The translations under genes were made by a program, and so were the position numbers. The notes under the pieces are model-generated. The model saw only the letters and a list, made by a program, of their open reading frames with translations. It did no database searches and had not been told where the DNA came from. 33,103 nt of DNA from an uncultured beta proteobacterium (GTDB lineage Bacteria > Pseudomonadota > Gammaproteobacteria > Burkholderiales > Burkholderiaceae_C): positions 1-33,103 of the forward strand of contig CAITQH010000021.1 of assembly GCA_903894475.1 (NCBI GenBank). The letters are read 5' to 3'. This document shows positions 6,382-16,422 of this stretch, one piece after another. Numbering within the stretch: position 1 is the stretch's first letter; every line of letters starts with the position of its first letter.

Positions 6382-8358
6382 TTACCTGGTGACAATGGCA
6401 AAGGTGCCGGTGGCCTTGTCAATCAGGCTGAAGAAACGGATCAGGTCGATCTTGCTGCCGCCGATCTTGAGATCGTCGCTCAGCAGGGTGTCTTTCACAC
6501 CCGCAGTACCCGCCATCATCTTGACAAAGATCGGCTTGGTCAGCGTCAGAGTCGCATTGGCGTTGTCTGCCGGGTTAGCCTTCTTGAAGTGCAAAACCGA
6601 ATTTTCAATCCACAGCACAAAGGACTCCTGACTGTCCGAGAACACCAGATTGATTTTGAGGTCCTTGCCCTCAGCCGCCGGACCATCCAGACCGGCAGCC
6701 ATGGCTTCCAGAAAGCGCTCGATCGGGGTTTGCGACAGCATGTCTACAAAGTAACTGCGATCAACCCCCTTCTTTGGCGCTCCGCTGCGCAGTTCAAGCG
6801 CTGCCGTCAGATAGCTGTTGCGCCAGGTTGATGCCTCGGACATATAGCCCATCTGGTCGTACGTCTTGGCCAGCAGTTCCTTGGCGCCTTGGTGCGCAGG
6901 ATCGCCAAAGACGACTTGGTCGAGCAGTTCTGCCGCCCAGCGATAGTCACCTTTGTCAAACGCGCTCTGGGCCGCAGCAACCGTCTTGTCGACGCCTCCC
7001 ATGAGTTCCAGATAGCGCTTGGCAGACTCCTGTGCCGGCAGCGGGTTGAGATGGGCTGGGTTGCCATCGTAGGCGCCCAGGTAGAACTGGTAGACCGCCT
7101 TCACGTTGTGGCGCAGGTCGCCGTAGTAACCGCGGGCGCCGAAATGTTCCGACAGTGACTTTGGCAGTTTGACCGTCTCTGCGATGTCGCGTGGGGTGTA
7201 GCCTGCGTTCATCAAGCGAACCGACTGATCGTGCGTGTACTTGTAGACGTCGCGGTGCTTGGTGATGAATTCGGCAATGCGCGCGTTGCCCCAGATGGGC
7301 CAATTGTGTTGACCCACATAGATTTCAGAATCACCCAACTGATCGAGCGCCTGCTGCATGTACTGTGACCAGCGCAAGGCATCACGCACCTTGGCGCCAC
7401 GCACCGGCAGCAGGTTGTGCATGGTCTGTGTCAGGTTCTCCGCGCCGCCGTAGAGTTTTTTGTCCGGGATCGAGAACGTCATTTCGGCCGGTGCCTCGGC
7501 ACCTGGAACATTGTGAAATACAAAGCGCACACCGTCGAGCAGCAGTTCTTCGGTGGGTTTACTGATGATCTTGTTGGGCGCCAGGATGCCGAAGCTGCCG
7601 TAAGCCGTCTCGCGGCCGATCCCGACATCAACAAAGCCCTTGGCTGTGCGTTCCAGGTTGCGTCCGGTCTGGTAGACCGATCGCCGACCCATCGCCGTGC
7701 CGACCATGATGTTTTCGCTGGTGGCCTCTTCCATGAAGCCTTCAGAAGCAACGACAGGAATCTTGCGCGCCGCAACCTCTGCGGCTGTCACAACACCCAG
7801 GGCGCCGCCAAAGTGGTCGATATGGCTGTGCGTGAAAATGATGACCGATACCGGCTTTTCACCCAGATGCTTGGCGACGAAGGCCAACGCTGCTGTGGCG
7901 CTTTCGCGCGCAGTCAGGGTGTCGATAACAATCCAGCCGCTCTTGCCCTCGACCAGGGTCATGTTGGCCATGTCAAAGCCACGCACCTGGTAGACACCGT
8001 CCGTTACCTTGAACAGGCCCACCTGCGAGTCAAGCTTGGCATGGCGCCACAGACTCGGGTTGACCGTTGCCGGCGCTGGCCCGTCGATGAACTTGAAGGC
8101 ATCGAAGTCAATCAGGGTCTGGCCAGTGGAGTCGACGATCTTGCCCTCGGGCTTGGCGACCAGCCCTCGTTTGGCATCTTCGAAGTCCTGTTGCTCATCG
8201 AGTCTGAGGTCTTTGGCAAACTGGGCGTTGACCTTCAGCGTTTCGGGCATCGCGTCTCCCGCTGCGCCACCTACGCCGGCAGTCTTGCTGCAGCCGCCTG
8301 CCAGGATAAGCAGCGCCGCCAGGCACAGTGTCTGGGATACATGAATCAGTTTGTTCAT
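6382..8358 (-). CDS. MBL-fold hydrolase, alkyl/aryl-sulfatase (SdsA1-like), predicted lipoprotein
   Basis: Lipobox-like LILAGGCS; metal-binding motif FTHSHIDHFGGALG; alkylsulfatase dimerisation region; C-terminal SCP2-like domain (LKIGGSKIDLIRFFSLIDKATGTFAIVTR). Confidence 0.88.
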   Translation of the reverse strand: MNKLIHVSQTLCLAALLILAGGCSKTAGVGGAAGDAMPETLKVNAQFAKDLRLDEQQDFEDAKRGLVAKPEGKIVDSTGQTLIDFDAFKFIDGPAPATVNPSLWRHAKLDSQVGLFKVTDGVYQVRGFDMANMTLVEGKSGWIVIDTLTARESATAALAFVAKHLGEKPVSVIIFTHSHIDHFGGALGVVTAAEVAARKIPVVASEGFMEEATSENIMVGTAMGRRSVYQTGRNLERTAKGFVDVGIGRETAYGSFGILAPNKIISKPTEELLLDGVRFVFHNVPGAEAPAEMTFSIPDKKLYGGAENLTQTMHNLLPVRGAKVRDALRWSQYMQQALDQLGDSEIYVGQHNWPIWGNARIAEFITKHRDVYKYTHDQSVRLMNAGYTPRDIAETVKLPKSLSEHFGARGYYGDLRHNVKAVYQFYLGAYDGNPAHLNPLPAQESAKRYLELMGGVDKTVAAAQSAFDKGDYRWAAELLDQVVFGDPAHQGAKELLAKTYDQMGYMSEASTWRNSYLTAALELRSGAPKKGVDRSYFVDMLSQTPIERFLEAMAAGLDGPAAEGKDLKINLVFSDSQESFVLWIENSVLHFKKANPADNANATLTLTKPIFVKMMAGTAGVKDTLLSDDLKIGGSKIDLIRFFSLIDKATGTFAIVTR

Positions 8359-8400: not shown

Positions 8401-10005
8401 TCACTGGCCTGCACGAATCAACTCGGCCGCTTTTTCCGCAATCATGATGGTCGGTGCGTTGGTGTTGCCGCCGATCAGGGTTGGCATGATGGAGGCGTCG
8501 ACCACGCGCAGGCCTGCTATGCCCTTGACACGCAACTGCGCATCAACTACCGCCAGTGGATCGCTGTCCGGTCCCATCTTGCAGGTGCCAACCGGGTGGT
8601 ACTGGGTGTCGGCTCGATTGCGAATATCGCGCGCCATGCCCTCGGGGTCATCAAGCGCAGCCGGGTAGAGCATCTTGCCGCGGATCGAATCAAAGGGCCT
8701 GGATTCAATGATGCGCTGTTGCATCTGCCCGCCTTTGACGAGCAGATGAAGATCGCGCTCATCGGCGAGGAACTTCGGATCAATGCTGGGCGCAACGCGG
8801 GGGTCTGGACTGTTCAGCGTCACGACACCACGGCTGTAGGGACGTAGCACGTCGACGTGGCAGGATATGCCGTGGCCCAGGTGCATGGTGCGTGCGTGGT
8901 TGTCAACGATGGCGATCACAAACACCAGTTGCAGATCGGGTATGGCCACCTCAGGTGAGGATCGCATGAAGGCGCCGGCAGTCGCGATCGAACTGGTGAT
9001 TAGGCCGGAACGCTTGCCGCGCCATTGCAACATGGCATTGGCCAGCTTGGCAGACCCGCGCAAGGACACGCCAATGGTGTCGGTATGGCTGGGTACACGC
9101 CAGGTTTGAACGTAGTCGATGTGATCCTGCAAATTCTTGCCTACACCCCACAGGTCTTTCACGACCGGGATGCCAAACTTTTGCAACTCATGGGTGGCAC
9201 CAATACCGGACAGCATCAACAACTGAGGTGAACCGAACGCACCGGCGGCCAAAAGTACTTCACGACGCGCACGTACCTGCTCGAGATGGTTGCCCTGGTA
9301 GTAAGCCACGCCGCGGGCGCACTTGCCTTCGATCATCACTTTCGCCGCTGTTGCCTGGGTGACGACCGTGAGGTTGGGACGTGAAAGATTGGGTGTTAGA
9401 AAGCCCTTGGCTGCGCTGCATCGTTCGCCGTTTTTCTGCGTGACCTGGTACAGGAAGGCGCCATCCTGCTCGGCGCCGTTGTAGTCCGGATTGAGTGCAA
9501 GTCCATTCAGCTGTGCTGCGTCCAGAAAGAGCTTGTTGACCGGGCTGGCGTGGTTCTGGTAGGTGACGTTGAGCGGTCCGCCCTGACCATGAAAGCCATC
9601 GACAAACTGTTCGTTGTTTTCGCTGCGCTTGAACAGCGGCAACACGTCGTCATAACGCCATCCGGGGTTGCCCAAGGCGGCCCAGTGGTCATAGTCCCAC
9701 GGGTTCCCACGCACATACAGCATGGCATTGATGGAACTCGAGCCGCCCAGCGTCTTGCCGCGTGGCTGGTAGCCGCGACGACCATTCAGACCCGGCTGCG
9801 GCACCGTCTCAAAAGCGTAGTTGTTGATCCTGGTGGGGACCATCGCCACGACGCCGACTGGGGCGTGAATCAGCACGCTCTTGTCGGGTCCTCCGGACTC
9901 CAGCAAGCAGACCGTGACACCAGGATCCTCACTCAAGCGCCCTGCCAGCACACACCCGGCTGAGCCAGCGCCGACCACCACGTAGTCAAACTCCATACTT
10001 GACAT
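8401..10005 (-). CDS. GMC family FAD-dependent oxidoreductase (choline/alcohol dehydrogenase-like)
   Basis: N-terminal [58 protein letters not shown]-terminal [10 protein letters not shown] and [30 protein letters not shown]. Confidence 0.95.
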
Positions 10006-10601: not shown

Positions 10602-11576
10602 TCAATCCACCTTCGCGCCAGAAGCCTCTACAGCCGCACGCCAGCTCTCCGTGTCTCGGCGCACAAAATCAGAGAACTCTTGAGGAGTACCTCCGACAAC
10701 TTCAAGGCCTTGGCCAGCCAGGTTGCTGCGTAGTGCCGGGTCTGCCAGCGCCTTGCCAATTTCAGAGTTCAGCCGAGCAATCGTTGTCGCTGGCGTGCCT
10801 GCCGGCACCATGATGCCCTGCCATCCCACCGCTGCATAATCCTTCAGACCAGCCTCTGCCATGGTAGGCACGTCGGGCATCACAGGTGATCGTGTAGCGC
10901 CAGTGATCGCCAACGCTCGGACCTTGCCAGCCTTGACGTACGGCACCGCCGTGACCAAGTCGTTTGAGAGAACTTGAACATCCTTTCCAAGAAGTGCGCT
11001 GAGTGCCGGTGCCGCGCCCTTGTATGGAATATGCGTCATTGAAATGCCAGCTCGCAACTTGAACAACTCAACTGCCAGATGCGGGAAGGTTCCGTTGCCC
11101 GCCGATGAGTAATTGAGCGCGCCCGGCTGCCTTTTCGCCAGCGCAATCAGTTCAGCCAAATTCGCCACCTTGACGTCTTCTGCCACCAGAAGCAGGTTCG
11201 GCACCTTTACCATCAAAATGACCGGGGCGAAGGCGGCAGCAGTATCGTAGGGGAGCGTTTTGTAGAGACTTGGGTTGATGGCGATATTGGTGTTGGCAAA
11301 CAACAGCGTGTGCCCGTCTGCAGGTGCCTTTGCGACCGTGTCGGCACCAAGAATTCCGCCGGCCCCGGCTTTGTTGTCGATAACCACTGGCTGACCCAGG
11401 GCAGAGGACAAGCGAGTGCCAATCGTGCGCGCCAGGACATCGGCTGAGCCGCCGGGTGGGAAAGGCACAACGATGCGTATCGGTTTGAAAGGAAAGTCCT
11501 GGGCCGTCGCCGTAACGCAGGCCAATGCCATGCAGGCACCGATCAAATACTCGATCAAACGCACGACAAACTTCAT
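10602..11576 (-). CDS. Bug-family (TctC-like) tripartite tricarboxylate transporter substrate-binding protein
   Basis: Signal peptide MKFVVRLIEYLIGACMALACVTATAQ then DFPFKPIRIVVPFPPGGSADVLARTIGTRLSSALGQPVVIDNKAGAGGILGADTVAKAPADGHTLLFAN. The start at 11576 overlaps the upstream stop (ATGA). Confidence 0.95.
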   Translation of the reverse strand: MKFVVRLIEYLIGACMALACVTATAQDFPFKPIRIVVPFPPGGSADVLARTIGTRLSSALGQPVVIDNKAGAGGILGADTVAKAPADGHTLLFANTNIAINPSLYKTLPYDTAAAFAPVILMVKVPNLLLVAEDVKVANLAELIALAKRQPGALNYSSAGNGTFPHLAVELFKLRAGISMTHIPYKGAAPALSALLGKDVQVLSNDLVTAVPYVKAGKVRALAITGATRSPVMPDVPTMAEAGLKDYAAVGWQGIMVPAGTPATTIARLNSEIGKALADPALRSNLAGQGLEVVGGTPQEFSDFVRRDTESWRAAVEASGAKVD

Positions 11577-13264
11577 GATTGTTCTCCTGCTTGCGGAATA
11601 ACTGGCAACAATAAATAGGACTCGAAGGCGCCGCCAAAATGCAGGGTATGACGGGTCAGAACTGGGTTGCAGGTATGCACCCAGATCGGATCTTCTGCTG
11701 TCGAGTCTTGCCCCCGGATGTCCAGGGCAAGACAATGCCCCTTGCGGAACAAATTTGACACTTCCCGAATCTCCATTGCATAAGCGTAGCTTTGACCCAT
11801 CGTCAATTGCTCCTTGCCGCTGTGTCTTTGCCAAGGTCGAAAAGGTGTCGATTTTTCGGCATCAAGTTCCCGCTGCGAAGCCCGCAGCCATCCCTTGGTC
11901 AGAGTACGTGAAGTGCCATCGGGTGCCAGGTCGCGCAGGGTGACAATCCAGGTTGCGTCGGGCTGGTCCAATGTTGCATGAAAATTCAGCATCACCGGAC
12001 CAGTCACCTCGACGTCGGCGGTGAAGGGCTCGGTCAGAAACGTCACAGCAGGCGGCAGTTGGCCGGGCGGCAGGTCGGGGTTGTTCAGGAGCTCGACGGC
12101 GTCGGAATGATCCTGCTGCTTGCGGGAAAGTGAACCGTGTGAGCCCAGGTAGAACCTGGTCCACGCAGTGCGCGCCAGCGGCCACTCGTTCTCGAAACGA
12201 TACTCGCCACTGCCCTTGATCAATAACTGGATCGGCGGCTCATCCATGAAGCCTGTATCGTTCCCCTTGAGCCAATGGTCATACCAGCGCAGAATCAAAT
12301 CATGATGGTCGGTCCAGGGGCGCAGTGGGCCAAGACGCGACTCCGTCTCCATCACCAGCAATTTCTTGGGGGCGGTGATACCTTCGTAGGCTTGAAATGC
12401 ACCAGCCAGATGCACAGCCCAACTGGTCCAGCGCGTGACCAGGAAAGTAGGGATGCGGATCCTGTCAAACATCCGATATGGCGAACGTTCCCAATAGAAC
12501 GGGCCATCAAACGGCTCCAGCATCCAGCCGAAAAGTAGAGGGTTCTTGTTCGGATATTTGAGTTGAATATGCAGATAAGGAGAATTCTGCACCTCTGGTG
12601 TCTGCATCAACGCCGAGACACGACGATCAATCTCATGCTGGGGCAAGTAGTCGTAACTCAATGGGCGCATGCCGTCCACACTCACATGACCCCACCACTG
12701 GTGCCAGAACCCCTCATTGAGCAGTCCGCCGTGGTAAACGCTTTGCCGATAGCGATCGGTCAGCGCCTCGTAGGGAACGATCGCTTTAAGATGAGGTGGC
12801 TGCTGCGCCGCCACCATGTATTGCATCACTGCGAAATAAGACATGCCCAGCATGCCGCAGTTGCCGTCGCACCAAGCCTGCTCGGCCATCCACTCAATGA
12901 TGTCGTAACCGTCTTCCTGCTCCTTGGGTCCCTGGTAACAGTACTCACCCTCCGAATCGCCCGAGCCACGTGCATCGGCGATGACGTGAACGTAGCCGCG
13001 GCTGACAAAGTATTCCGAATCGCCTGCTTCGAGTCCGCCATTGCCTGCCAATGGACTGAGTGGCGATCGTTTGTCGGAAATGCGTTGCAGATCCTTGCCA
13101 TAGTGAGAGTAAGACAAGAGGGCCGGATAGCGGCCAGGCTCGTCAGGAAGATAGACGTCGCAGGCCACACGGGTGCCGTCACGGGTCCGAATCATGACGC
13201 CCCGCTGCACAGACATACCGTAGGCCGGTTGGGATACTTTGCTGTGCCAGTCCTGTGCAGTCAT
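11573..13264 (-). CDS. CocE/NonD family hydrolase (S15 / X-Pro dipeptidyl-peptidase-like)
   Basis: RTRDGTRVACDVYLPDEPGRYPALLSYSHYGK; HVIADARGSGDSEGEYCYQGPKEQEDGYDIIEWMAEQAWCDGNCGMLGMSYFAVMQYMVAAQQPPHLKAIVPYEA; C-terminal beta domain. The start could lie further upstream (ORF opens at 13291). Confidence 0.9.
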   Translation of the reverse strand: MTAQDWHSKVSQPAYGMSVQRGVMIRTRDGTRVACDVYLPDEPGRYPALLSYSHYGKDLQRISDKRSPLSPLAGNGGLEAGDSEYFVSRGYVHVIADARGSGDSEGEYCYQGPKEQEDGYDIIEWMAEQAWCDGNCGMLGMSYFAVMQYMVAAQQPPHLKAIVPYEALTDRYRQSVYHGGLLNEGFWHQWWGHVSVDGMRPLSYDYLPQHEIDRRVSALMQTPEVQNSPYLHIQLKYPNKNPLLFGWMLEPFDGPFYWERSPYRMFDRIRIPTFLVTRWTSWAVHLAGAFQAYEGITAPKKLLVMETESRLGPLRPWTDHHDLILRWYDHWLKGNDTGFMDEPPIQLLIKGSGEYRFENEWPLARTAWTRFYLGSHGSLSRKQQDHSDAVELLNNPDLPPGQLPPAVTFLTEPFTADVEVTGPVMLNFHATLDQPDATWIVTLRDLAPDGTSRTLTKGWLRASQRELDAEKSTPFRPWQRHSGKEQLTMGQSYAYAMEIREVSNLFRKGHCLALDIRGQDSTAEDPIWVHTCNPVLTRHTLHFGGAFESYLLLPVIPQAGEQS

Positions 13265-13331
13265 ATTTGCTTCCATCAAGAGGTTTACCACGCCGAATTC
13301 GGCTGGAACGCTTCAGTTTAGGATAGAGTTC

Positions 13332-13354
13332 GATGGTTGTAATAATCAACTATC
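13332..13354. promoter_or_regulatory. Candidate MarR operator GATGGTTG-TAATAAT-CAACTATC
   Basis: Inverted repeat GATNGTTG-N7-CAACNATC in the divergent region between the CocE/NonD hydrolase and the marR gene. The same pattern occurs at 13972-13994. Confidence 0.75.
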
Positions 13355-13384
13355 ACAGGTAGAAACCCGCAGTCTGCCAAGCAA

Positions 13385-13903
13385 ATGTCGCTCCAAGCGC
13401 CGAAACGGCTGGATGAATTATTGAATTACCGGCTTGCACGTTTGCTGGCCAAGAGCAGCGCACCTGGAATCAGGCTGTTCGAAGGGAGATATGGTGTTTC
13501 AAGGCGTGAATGGCGATTGGTGGGTCTTGTTGCAGTTTATGGCGCGATGTCTCCGTCAGATCTGGCAACCCTGGCTCACCTGGATCGCCCATGCGTTTCC
13601 CGGGCCATTACGGAGTTGGTTGAAAAGGGATTGCTGGTGCGTGCTGGCGTTCCAAACGACGGACGTCGAGCCCAGGTCGACATTACCCGCAAAGGCAAGA
13701 AGCTGTACGAAGTGGTGTTGCCGCAGGTAGTGAGCATCAACAATGCCGTGTTGGGGGTCCTTAACTCTGATCAGCTGACCGAACTCGACAAGATTCTTGA
13801 CTTGCTTACCCAATCCGCCGAAGAGGTAGTGCGCTCGTCTCCCGTGATTGGAGAGGGTTCACGTCACATTGGCGGTCTGCGTTCGATGCCGGACTTGAAC
13901 TGA
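13385..13903 (+). CDS. MarR family transcriptional regulator
   Basis: YRLARLLAKSSAPGIRLFEGRYGVSRREWRLVGLVAVYGAMSPSDLATLAHLDRPCVSRAITELVEKGLLVRAGVPNDGRRAQVDITRKGKKLYEVVLP: classic winged-helix MarR pattern. Confidence 0.93.
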   Translation: MSLQAPKRLDELLNYRLARLLAKSSAPGIRLFEGRYGVSRREWRLVGLVAVYGAMSPSDLATLAHLDRPCVSRAITELVEKGLLVRAGVPNDGRRAQVDITRKGKKLYEVVLPQVVSINNAVLGVLNSDQLTELDKILDLLTQSAEEVVRSSPVIGEGSRHIGGLRSMPDLN

Positions 13904-13971
13904 AATGGTCTTGACAGATCTTGACGCCCGTGAAGGAGCCTTTGTTCCACAGACAGCGGGTTTGTACGTAG

Positions 13972-13994
13972 GATAGTTGTTTTGTACAACGATC
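13972..13994. promoter_or_regulatory. Candidate MarR operator GATAGTTG-TTTTGTA-CAACGATC
   Basis: Second occurrence of GATNGTTG-N7-CAACNATC, 70 bp upstream of the lipoprotein start at 14065. It overlaps a weak promoter-like pair TTGTAC-N17-TACAAC (13962-13990). Confidence 0.75.
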
Positions 13995-14064
13995 GCATTC
14001 CGTCCTAGACTGAAGCGTCCGCATCGAATTTGATGTGGATGACTATTATTACAAAGGAGACATA

Positions 14065-16422
14065 ATGGAAATGCGCAATTCGCGACTCCGTTTGGCGTTC
14101 AGCAGACCGGTCGTTTTTTCAGTCGGACTTGCACTCCTGACAGTCGGGGTGCTGACCGCTTGCGGGGGCAGCGATCCGATTCCCCCTGTAGTTGCACCTA
14201 CCCCCACCCCGGTACCCGTCGTTTCAACGCCAAGCGTCTCGGTACTGTCGTCGCTGGCGCACCGCGTCAGTGGTGGCAGTGCACTCGTGGATATCGCCAT
14301 GCCCGCGAATGCCACGGCGTCAGATGCCTTGGTGGTAACCGCTAACGGAAAAGACGTGACCTCGATCTTCAAGGCAAGCGCTACAACGGGCCATCTATCC
14401 GGCCTGGTGACCGGACTCGCGGCTGGCGATAACGCACTGGTGGCCAAGGTCGGCAATTCCGCTGCAGCCACGGTGACCTTGACCAATTACGGCATTGCCG
14501 GTCCGGTTTCATCCGGGCCATACGTTACCCCCTTCATCTGTCAGACCAGCACATTGGCCTTGCCGGATGGGACCAAACTGGTGGCCACGGCAAATGACCC
14601 CAATTGCTCGGCTGCGACCAATGTTCAGTATCAGTATCGGACGACAGCTGAGGTCTACAAGACATTGACTGACACCACGAAGATTCCGACCGATGTGAAG
14701 ATGATCAAGAACGCAGCTGGGGCGTCTGTTCCGTACATCGTGCGGGTGGAAACAATGACCATCGACAGAGGTATCGCTCAGATCACCATCCTCTTTGATC
14801 CCACGACGGACGTAGAGCCTACCCCGGCAACGCCTCCGAAAAACTGGAACAAACGCCTTGTCTACGGCCACGGAACTGGTTGCATGGCCGGTTGGTTCAT
14901 TCAGGGTGGTGTCTGGGGCTATAACCCGATGAATGACACTTGGCTTTCACGCGGATACGCAGTGGCCAACAACACCTTGAACCACCCGACCAATAGTTGC
15001 AATCAAGTGATCTCCGGCGAAGCTGCCGTGATGACCAAAGAGTATTTCATCAAGCGTTTTGGAGCTCCGGTTTATACGATTTCTACAGGAACTTCTGGCG
15101 GCTCGATCGCAAGCGTGCAATTGGGTGATATGTTCCCGGGGCTTTTTGACGGTGCGCTTGTCGATGCCAGCTTCCCCGATGTCATCACGATTGCGCAATC
15201 AGCGACTGATGCGCATTTGCTGTCCAACTACTTTGCCAGCACTTCTCCATCTGCCGCTTCGTTCACATCCCAGCAGAAGGCATTGGTTTCAGGCTACGCC
15301 GCAGAAATAACGATGGTCGCGGCTGGCAATCAAATGGGGCGCACGGATCCGGTACCGGGCCGTCTGGCACCAACTTTTGCTGGCGTTGGAAATTACGCAT
15401 CGGCCGTCTGGAATGCGGTGGTGCCAGTGTCCCTGCGCTACGATCCAAACGCCACGCCGCCAAATTTTGCTGGTGCTAGACCCACAATTTACGATATCGG
15501 TGTCAACGTTTACGGCAAGGGAGTGAATCCACTCGACCCCTCCGGCAAGACAACCATCGGTTTACGCACTTTTGACAACGTCGGCGTGCAATACGGGCTG
15601 TCAGCACTCAATGCGGGTGCCATCACGGCTACACAATTTCTGGACATGAACGCCAGCGTTGGTGGCTTTGATACCGATGCCAATCCGGTCACTAAACGTA
15701 GCGTCGGAAACGACGGGGCGATCTTGCGCGCAAACCAGGCTGGCTTGCTGCTTAGTGCCAGCGCAGGCCTTGCGTCTATTCCGGTTCTTGACGTTACCAA
15801 TATTTATGCGGAAGACACCAGTAATTACCATTTGCAGTGGGAGCACTTTGCGGTGCGCGAACGGTTGATCCAGTCCAATGGAAACGCAGACAACTATGTG
15901 ATGTGGCGTGGTGGCCCCGGTACCGGTGCCACCACAGCCAATCCTGCCGCGCCTATTGCAGCGCTTAGCACCAATGCTATTGCTGCCTTCGAAAAATGGA
16001 TGGAGGCCATCCTTGCGGACAAGTCGGCAGACCTTCAGCGGACCAAAGTTATCCGCAACAAGCCGGCCGACCTGGTTGACGGTTGCTTTGACAAGTCGAC
16101 GCCCCCGCAATTCATTGCGGAGAAGCAGACTTTAGGTACGAGTGGAACGCAGTGCAATATCTTGTGGCCTTCGTACCGTTTTCCGCGCATGGAAGCGGGT
16201 GGTTCGCTGGCGTCCAACAATCTGAAATGCCAGCTCAAGCCTGTGGACCTCGCAGACTACAAGTTGTCCTTCAGCTCTGCCGACTTGAGCCGCCTGCGCG
16301 CGACATTTCCTTCAGGCGTGTGCGATTTCAGCAAGCCGGGTGTGAATTTCACCAAAGTAGTTCCGTGGGCTTCCTTCGGCCCGTCGAAGGTCAACCTGGT
16401 GTTCGACATCACCGCGCCTTGA
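14065..16422 (+). CDS. DUF6351-like secreted hydrolase, predicted lipoprotein
   Basis: RBS AAAGGAGA before ATG 14065; lipobox-like LTACGG; central VYTISTGTSGGSIASVQLGDMFPGLFDGALVDASFPDVI (alpha/beta-hydrolase-like nucleophile elbow GTSGGS). The family name is from memory of its pattern (CNxVxSxE..FxKRxGxPxxTxxxGxSGGxIxxxxxxxxxPGLxDGxxxxxxFPD). Confidence 0.75.
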   Translation: MEMRNSRLRLAFSRPVVFSVGLALLTVGVLTACGGSDPIPPVVAPTPTPVPVVSTPSVSVLSSLAHRVSGGSALVDIAMPANATASDALVVTANGKDVTSIFKASATTGHLSGLVTGLAAGDNALVAKVGNSAAATVTLTNYGIAGPVSSGPYVTPFICQTSTLALPDGTKLVATANDPNCSAATNVQYQYRTTAEVYKTLTDTTKIPTDVKMIKNAAGASVPYIVRVETMTIDRGIAQITILFDPTTDVEPTPATPPKNWNKRLVYGHGTGCMAGWFIQGGVWGYNPMNDTWLSRGYAVANNTLNHPTNSCNQVISGEAAVMTKEYFIKRFGAPVYTISTGTSGGSIASVQLGDMFPGLFDGALVDASFPDVITIAQSATDAHLLSNYFASTSPSAASFTSQQKALVSGYAAEITMVAAGNQMGRTDPVPGRLAPTFAGVGNYASAVWNAVVPVSLRYDPNATPPNFAGARPTIYDIGVNVYGKGVNPLDPSGKTTIGLRTFDNVGVQYGLSALNAGAITATQFLDMNASVGGFDTDANPVTKRSVGNDGAILRANQAGLLLSASAGLASIPVLDVTNIYAEDTSNYHLQWEHFAVRERLIQSNGNADNYVMWRGGPGTGATTANPAAPIAALSTNAIAAFEKWMEAILADKSADLQRTKVIRNKPADLVDGCFDKSTPPQFIAEKQTLGTSGTQCNILWPSYRFPRMEAGGSLASNNLKCQLKPVDLADYKLSFSSADLSRLRATFPSGVCDFSKPGVNFTKVVPWASFGPSKVNLVFDITAP

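Follow-up and report, generated by a model that had tools for sequence, protein, structure and literature searches.

The marR gene of this locus lies between two copies of a 23-bp interrupted palindrome, raising the question of whether the two sites and the genes behind them form a regulon and, if so, whether the regulator switches these genes off or on. Most MarR proteins repress. In the window, the whole stretch of 33,103 nucleotides analysed here, the relevant genes and sites are:

13385 to 13903, plus strand: MarR-family regulator of BhbR2 type, 172 amino acids
11573 to 13291, minus strand: CocE/NonD-type hydrolase (S15/PepX_C), the start more likely being the ATG at 13264
10602 to 11576, minus strand: periplasmic solute-binding protein of Bug/TctC type, whose gene overlaps the stop of CocE and probably belongs to the same operon
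14065 to 16422, plus strand: DUF6351 tannase-like lipoprotein (lipobox LTAC, GTSGGS; Shine-Dalgarno AAAGGAG at 14053-14059)
13332 to 13354, minus strand: operator 1, predicted BhbR2-type MarR site, composite score 41.8
13972 to 13994, plus strand: operator 2, predicted BhbR2-type MarR site, composite score 37.7, kept in the close relative L014

Read from the window sequence, 13332-13354 is GATGGTTG-TAATAAT-CAACTATC and 13972-13994 is GATAGTTG-TTTTGTA-CAACGATC; these are the matched palindromes with identical arms and spacing that the first-pass annotation had described, 640 bp apart with the single marR gene between them. Their placement also holds as first described: operator 1 lies between the divergent marR and CocE/NonD-Bug operon, 31-53 bp ahead of the first marR codon, and operator 2 precedes the gene for the DUF6351-like lipoprotein. 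The operator centres fall at about -35 of the CocE-Bug and DUF6351 promoters, respectively, the predicted transcription starts being near 13308 (minus strand) and 14018 (plus strand). A genome-wide search for GATNGTTGN7CAACNATC, as the annotation had proposed, returned only the two window sites in 5.2 Mb, against 0 matches for the reversed pattern, so that the contrary prospect it had raised, of an abundant motif unlinked to this locus, gives way to a motif confined to these two sites. Across the 301 genomes of its family, the exact motif turns up in only 6 (controls, 0), and a relaxed pattern of operator, 11 bp and TANANT finds the same two places only in this genome. Genome places with one or two mismatches were dismissed as chance; family-model scoring covered the 13 of them examined as loci, all of which score low.

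The two sites have more in common than their arms. Their spacers had been called unrelated because they were compared in opposite promoter orientations; once both sites point toward the gene served, site 1 (reverse-complemented) reads GATAGTTG-ATTATTA-CAACCATC beside GATAGTTG-TTTTGTA-CAACGATC for site 2, and 4 of the 7 spacer bases are equal. Both sit in a duplicated, inverted module of about 93 bp, with 65 of 93 positions identical; no other 93-mer in the window reaches more than 41 (mean 23, sd 4.2). The module comprises:

13302 to 13394, minus strand: duplicated promoter module, copy 1
13932 to 14024, plus strand: duplicated promoter module, copy 2
13315 to 13320, minus strand: TAAACT, the -10 hexamer serving CocE-Bug, separated from operator 1 by exactly 11 bp
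14006 to 14011, plus strand: TAGACT, the -10 hexamer serving DUF6351, separated from operator 2 by exactly 11 bp
13363 to 13370, minus strand: GCGGGTTT, a conserved accessory block between operator 1 and the marR start
13956 to 13963, plus strand: the same block GCGGGTTT, upstream of operator 2

The string common to both copies is GCGGGTTT-n-TAC...GATAGTTG-nTTnnTA-CAAC-n-ATC-11 bp-TAnACTGAAGCGT. What has been conserved is an operator-promoter module with a set orientation, in which the spacer is constrained and not free. A strong sigma-70 promoter was looked for at both modules and none was found; ATTACA and TGTACA, which lie 17 bp from the -10, match the -35 consensus in part.

A copied module could also be a mere leftover of promoter duplication, or site 2 could serve marR as a hairpin in the RNA or as a terminator, in either case without a regulatory role; the 161-nt leader RNA does fold somewhat better than shuffles (z -2.06). 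Yet site 2 points at DUF6351 with the correct promoter spacing, and L014 retains both operator and -10 although the flank upstream of site 2 has diverged. No Rfam match was found, and the dyad of site 2 is not followed by a run of T, a terminator-like match lying at 14016-14041; the Rfam and terminator readings were rejected on these grounds. We consider a functionless site 2 very improbable.

The regulator itself carries a MarR winged-helix domain above Pfam cut-offs (PF12802, 44.5 bits against 27; PF01047, 37.2 against 24.6), and no paralogue of it was found in the genome at E<=1e-10. Its best NCBIfam match by E-value is HpaR (TIGR02337, 5.8e-15), but the 55.3 bits fall far under the 121.2-bit equivalog cut-off, and assignment to the HpaR equivalog was rejected. 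The best-matched characterised homologue is BhbR2 of Pigmentiphaga kullae H8, a MarR-family dimer that controls phbh2-pcaB2-pcaA2, binds this type of site in electrophoretic mobility shift assay (EMSA) and DNase I footprinting experiments, and protects TCCTTGATTGTTCTAATCAACC, from -43 to -22 (PMC12016517). Induction requires BhbR2, which is a ligand-responsive activator and stays bound to DNA with its inducer, 3-bromo-4-hydroxybenzoate (PMC12016517). In P. kullae K24 (L022), the exact TCCTTGATTGTTCTAATCAACC 22-mer occurs at -43 from the marR start and the locus also holds the bhbR2 primer sequences; the K24 MarR was thus matched to the published BhbR2. The window MarR and this K24 counterpart are 47% identical over 175 columns (E 7e-55) and fall in a joint group of 33 rows in the tree (support 93/87). 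MarR dimers bind a 16-23 bp inverted repeat near their own gene; inverted repeats are present and conserved here, binding being shown for BhbR2 only.

The BhbR2 promoter also agrees in its geometry. Its -10 (AGCTAGAGT) lies at the position set by our composite model of operator, 11 bp and -10, and, counted from the published start site, the -10 hexamer spans -12 to -7 while the operator is centred on -35, in agreement with that model. By sequence and spacing, the window operators fit the BhbR2 rule of -43 to -22 and 11 bp from a TAGAGT-like -10. The window protein is thus most likely a BhbR2-type regulator, with two predicted targets.

The MarR alignment was scanned against one genome per species, yielding 80 loci, nearly all of them from Burkholderiales. 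The divergent CocE-Bug pair is retained in five (L014-L018), which form one clade with the window (support 100/100). The conservation in orthologous loci proposed as a check is borne out: counting the window, 76 of 81 marR genes have the site just upstream (symmetric matrix), although the loci are mutually related and the count does not represent independent events. Leave-one-out scores of these sites range from 10 to 32, a score above 9 being reached by 1.5% of the 1,841 segments that served as controls. Leave-one-out scoring and controls were used with a matrix that had the window sites as its seed, and near copies remain. The five exceptions are all Cupriavidus, in which the module precedes a Bug-sulfatase operon and marR lacks a site of its own, indicating that the site tracks the target operon and not marR alone.

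When 69 distinct sites were aligned in target orientation, the distance from operator to TANANT was exactly 11 bp without gaps, and the fixed positions of TANANT were kept in 65, 68, 62 and 68 of the 69. The spacer is asymmetric, with T-W-G-A at its centre and complementary bases at pair 10-12 in just 1% of sites, and so probably carries promoter information. The composite model scores above 12 at 14 further places in 758 kb (reversed control, 2): one in L014, before DUF6351; seven in Pigmentiphaga; one in L045, about 170 bp upstream of a Bug match; and five in Cupriavidus, before the Bug-sulfatase operon.

A second module, aimed at a Bug operon near marR, is present in all seven Pigmentiphaga loci (L019, L022, L023, L025, L027, L028 and L033). 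Counted from marR, its position is about +2730 to +2820, with L022 at about +2729. This operon is a predicted further target of BhbR2, one that we did not find reported in open-licence literature. The 69 aligned loci also have TnnGGGTTTnTnCC as a conserved block, 9-17 bp from the operator on the marR side and beyond the published footprint; blocks of this type are absent in Pigmentiphaga and about 10 bp farther from the operator in Cupriavidus. The density of GGGTWWN1-3CCC is 16 per 10 kb upstream of marR, versus 1.6 in other intergenic and 0.24 in coding DNA.

Covariation between protein and operator was also considered. Protein and operator distances are weakly linked: the recognition helix gives a partial r of 0.17, and the remainder of the protein does as well or better; recognition-helix covariation, confounded by kinship, was set aside. 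Covariation between arms is significant at pairs 4-18 and 6-16 only. Both arms have changed together in some subclades (L053, L059, L062, L065 and L054, L075, L093; ATGG/CCAT and CTTG/CAAG), and their recognition helices are unlike the majority form.

An interrupted dyad can resemble the T-N11-A motif of LysR-type regulators, and a TetR gene occurs elsewhere in the window, so the sites might belong to another regulator or a global factor and lie near marR by accident. We give this scarcely any credence, as the site follows the MarR clade or, in loci whose marR lacks one, the Bug operon; a homologue has been footprinted on this type of site, and the genome has no further copy of the motif. This uniqueness, the conservation, Cupriavidus Bug operons and footprinted homologue strongly support the earlier proposal of a likely MarR regulon comprising both sites.

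How the regulator acts is a separate matter. In the mechanism we propose, a dimer of the 13385-13903 product would bind operators 1 and 2, each centred near -35 of a promoter that is weak and has its -10 a fixed 11 bp beyond, promoter 1 serving the cytoplasmic CocE/NonD-type hydrolase and Bug and promoter 2 the secreted lipoprotein. An aromatic carboxylate or ester would bind the DNA-retained dimer, which most likely then activates both promoters; marR itself is probably also controlled from operator 1, and the outcome would be a small regulon for ester hydrolysis and uptake. The second module would have arisen as an inverted copy of the first. We assign a probability of about 0.62 to a BhbR2-type dimer acting at both operators and activating the CocE-Bug and DUF6351 promoters in step. 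The sequence itself shows the sites, their uniqueness, and the module with its spacing and conservation. For the 47%-identical homologue, the literature shows that it binds, where it sits with respect to the start site, that it activates and that ligand does not displace it. We infer the same behaviour for the window MarR, the sign of control, the ligand class and the direction of copying.

The same sites and regulon could also be described with a classical repressor, the dimer occluding the -35 of both target promoters and of marR until released by ligand. This was our initial inference, later demoted given the published behaviour of BhbR2. An operator centred on -35 is the classic repressor position too; the asymmetrically conserved T-W-G-A, 18 bp from the -10, could serve as a -35 core; and, given their partial -35 matches, the promoters might work unaided. 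Overlap repression of this kind is typical of characterised MarR proteins (PMC12016517), and HpaR represses the hpa operon (PMC7180172). The DUF6351 module, moreover, is shared by one close relative only (L014), a point against the proposed mechanism as a whole. Nevertheless, BhbR2, with the same operator and position, is an activator that its inducer does not release, and for this reason the default repressor picture is not the best supported. Spacing that is always 11 bp, together with weak -35 elements, is better explained by an activator, and the lack of a strong sigma-70 promoter at both modules fits a need for activation. Activation thus appears likelier than classical repression for the window MarR, and repression, though a serious contender, unlikely.

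If the regulon is read from its targets, the hydrolase, Bug protein and lipoprotein together suggest that an aromatic or similar ester is hydrolysed outside and inside the cell and the acid taken up, and suggest an ester or aromatic acid as ligand. Among the loci examined, the window and L014 are the only ones in which the operator precedes DUF6351. The idea that DUF6351 is generally a target was rejected: the gene is present in 30 genomes of the family and, of 30 loci scanned, the window alone has the site. DUF6351 often lies beside Bug/TctC genes without the operator (L116, L117, L118, L123 and L125), an adjacency in other family members hinting at a general DUF6351-Bug partnership. In the window, the Bug gene is followed by an alkyl-sulfatase-type metallo-hydrolase and a GMC oxidoreductase (6382-8358; 8401-10005), for neither of which was a match found in the relatives' loci. 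Arylsulfatase-Bug operons are frequent predicted targets of the same MarR clade elsewhere; the genes near its operators include LigA, LigB, 4-hydroxybenzoate 3-monooxygenase, arylsulfatases, SulP permeases and Bug proteins.

A MarR-type sensor thus almost certainly controls an esterase-uptake operon and a secreted tannase-like enzyme together. More tentatively, and with somewhat less than even confidence, we suggest that this widespread Burkholderiales clade consists of constitutively bound, ligand-switched activators, sited where sigma region 4 would contact the -35 and rigidly 11 bp from the -10, and that the module is copied as a cassette recruiting genes such as DUF6351. One footprinted activator, from a degrader of brominated hydroxybenzoate, stands for some 80 loci with a common operator-promoter code. 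The predicted regulons take in Bug transporters, aryl-sulfatases, LigAB/hydroxybenzoate operons and a tannase-like enzyme, most without known substrates, and the invariant spacing makes the idea of a DNA-retained MarR activator directly testable by altering one spacer. The operator type is already known from BhbR2; the clade-wide module and the lineage-specific recruitment of DUF6351 appear undescribed in open-licence literature.

Several known systems resemble this locus in part. EstR-EstC of Agrobacterium is alike in gene arrangement, its MarR gene adjoining the esterase gene under its control, but estC is tied to organic hydroperoxide sensitivity (PMC5201249). HpaR, regulator of the homoprotocatechuate operon, is likewise a MarR regulator of aromatic catabolism, but a repressor. 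IadR/MarR_73 of Variovorax (auxin catabolism) binds between its own gene and the catabolic operon (PMC9613470); it is a repressor released by ligand, unlike the BhbR2-type behaviour expected of the window MarR, and is not among the sequence matches of that protein to solved structures at E<=1e-6. BhbR2 differs in its targets, a hydroxylase and a ring-cleavage dioxygenase in place of CocE-Bug and the DUF6351 lipoprotein, and the window has a second module downstream of marR, before DUF6351. The likeness to BhbR2 extends to the type of palindrome (TTGATT-N5-AATCAA lies within the module), its placement relative to the -10 and start site, and a marR gene divergent from the target operon.
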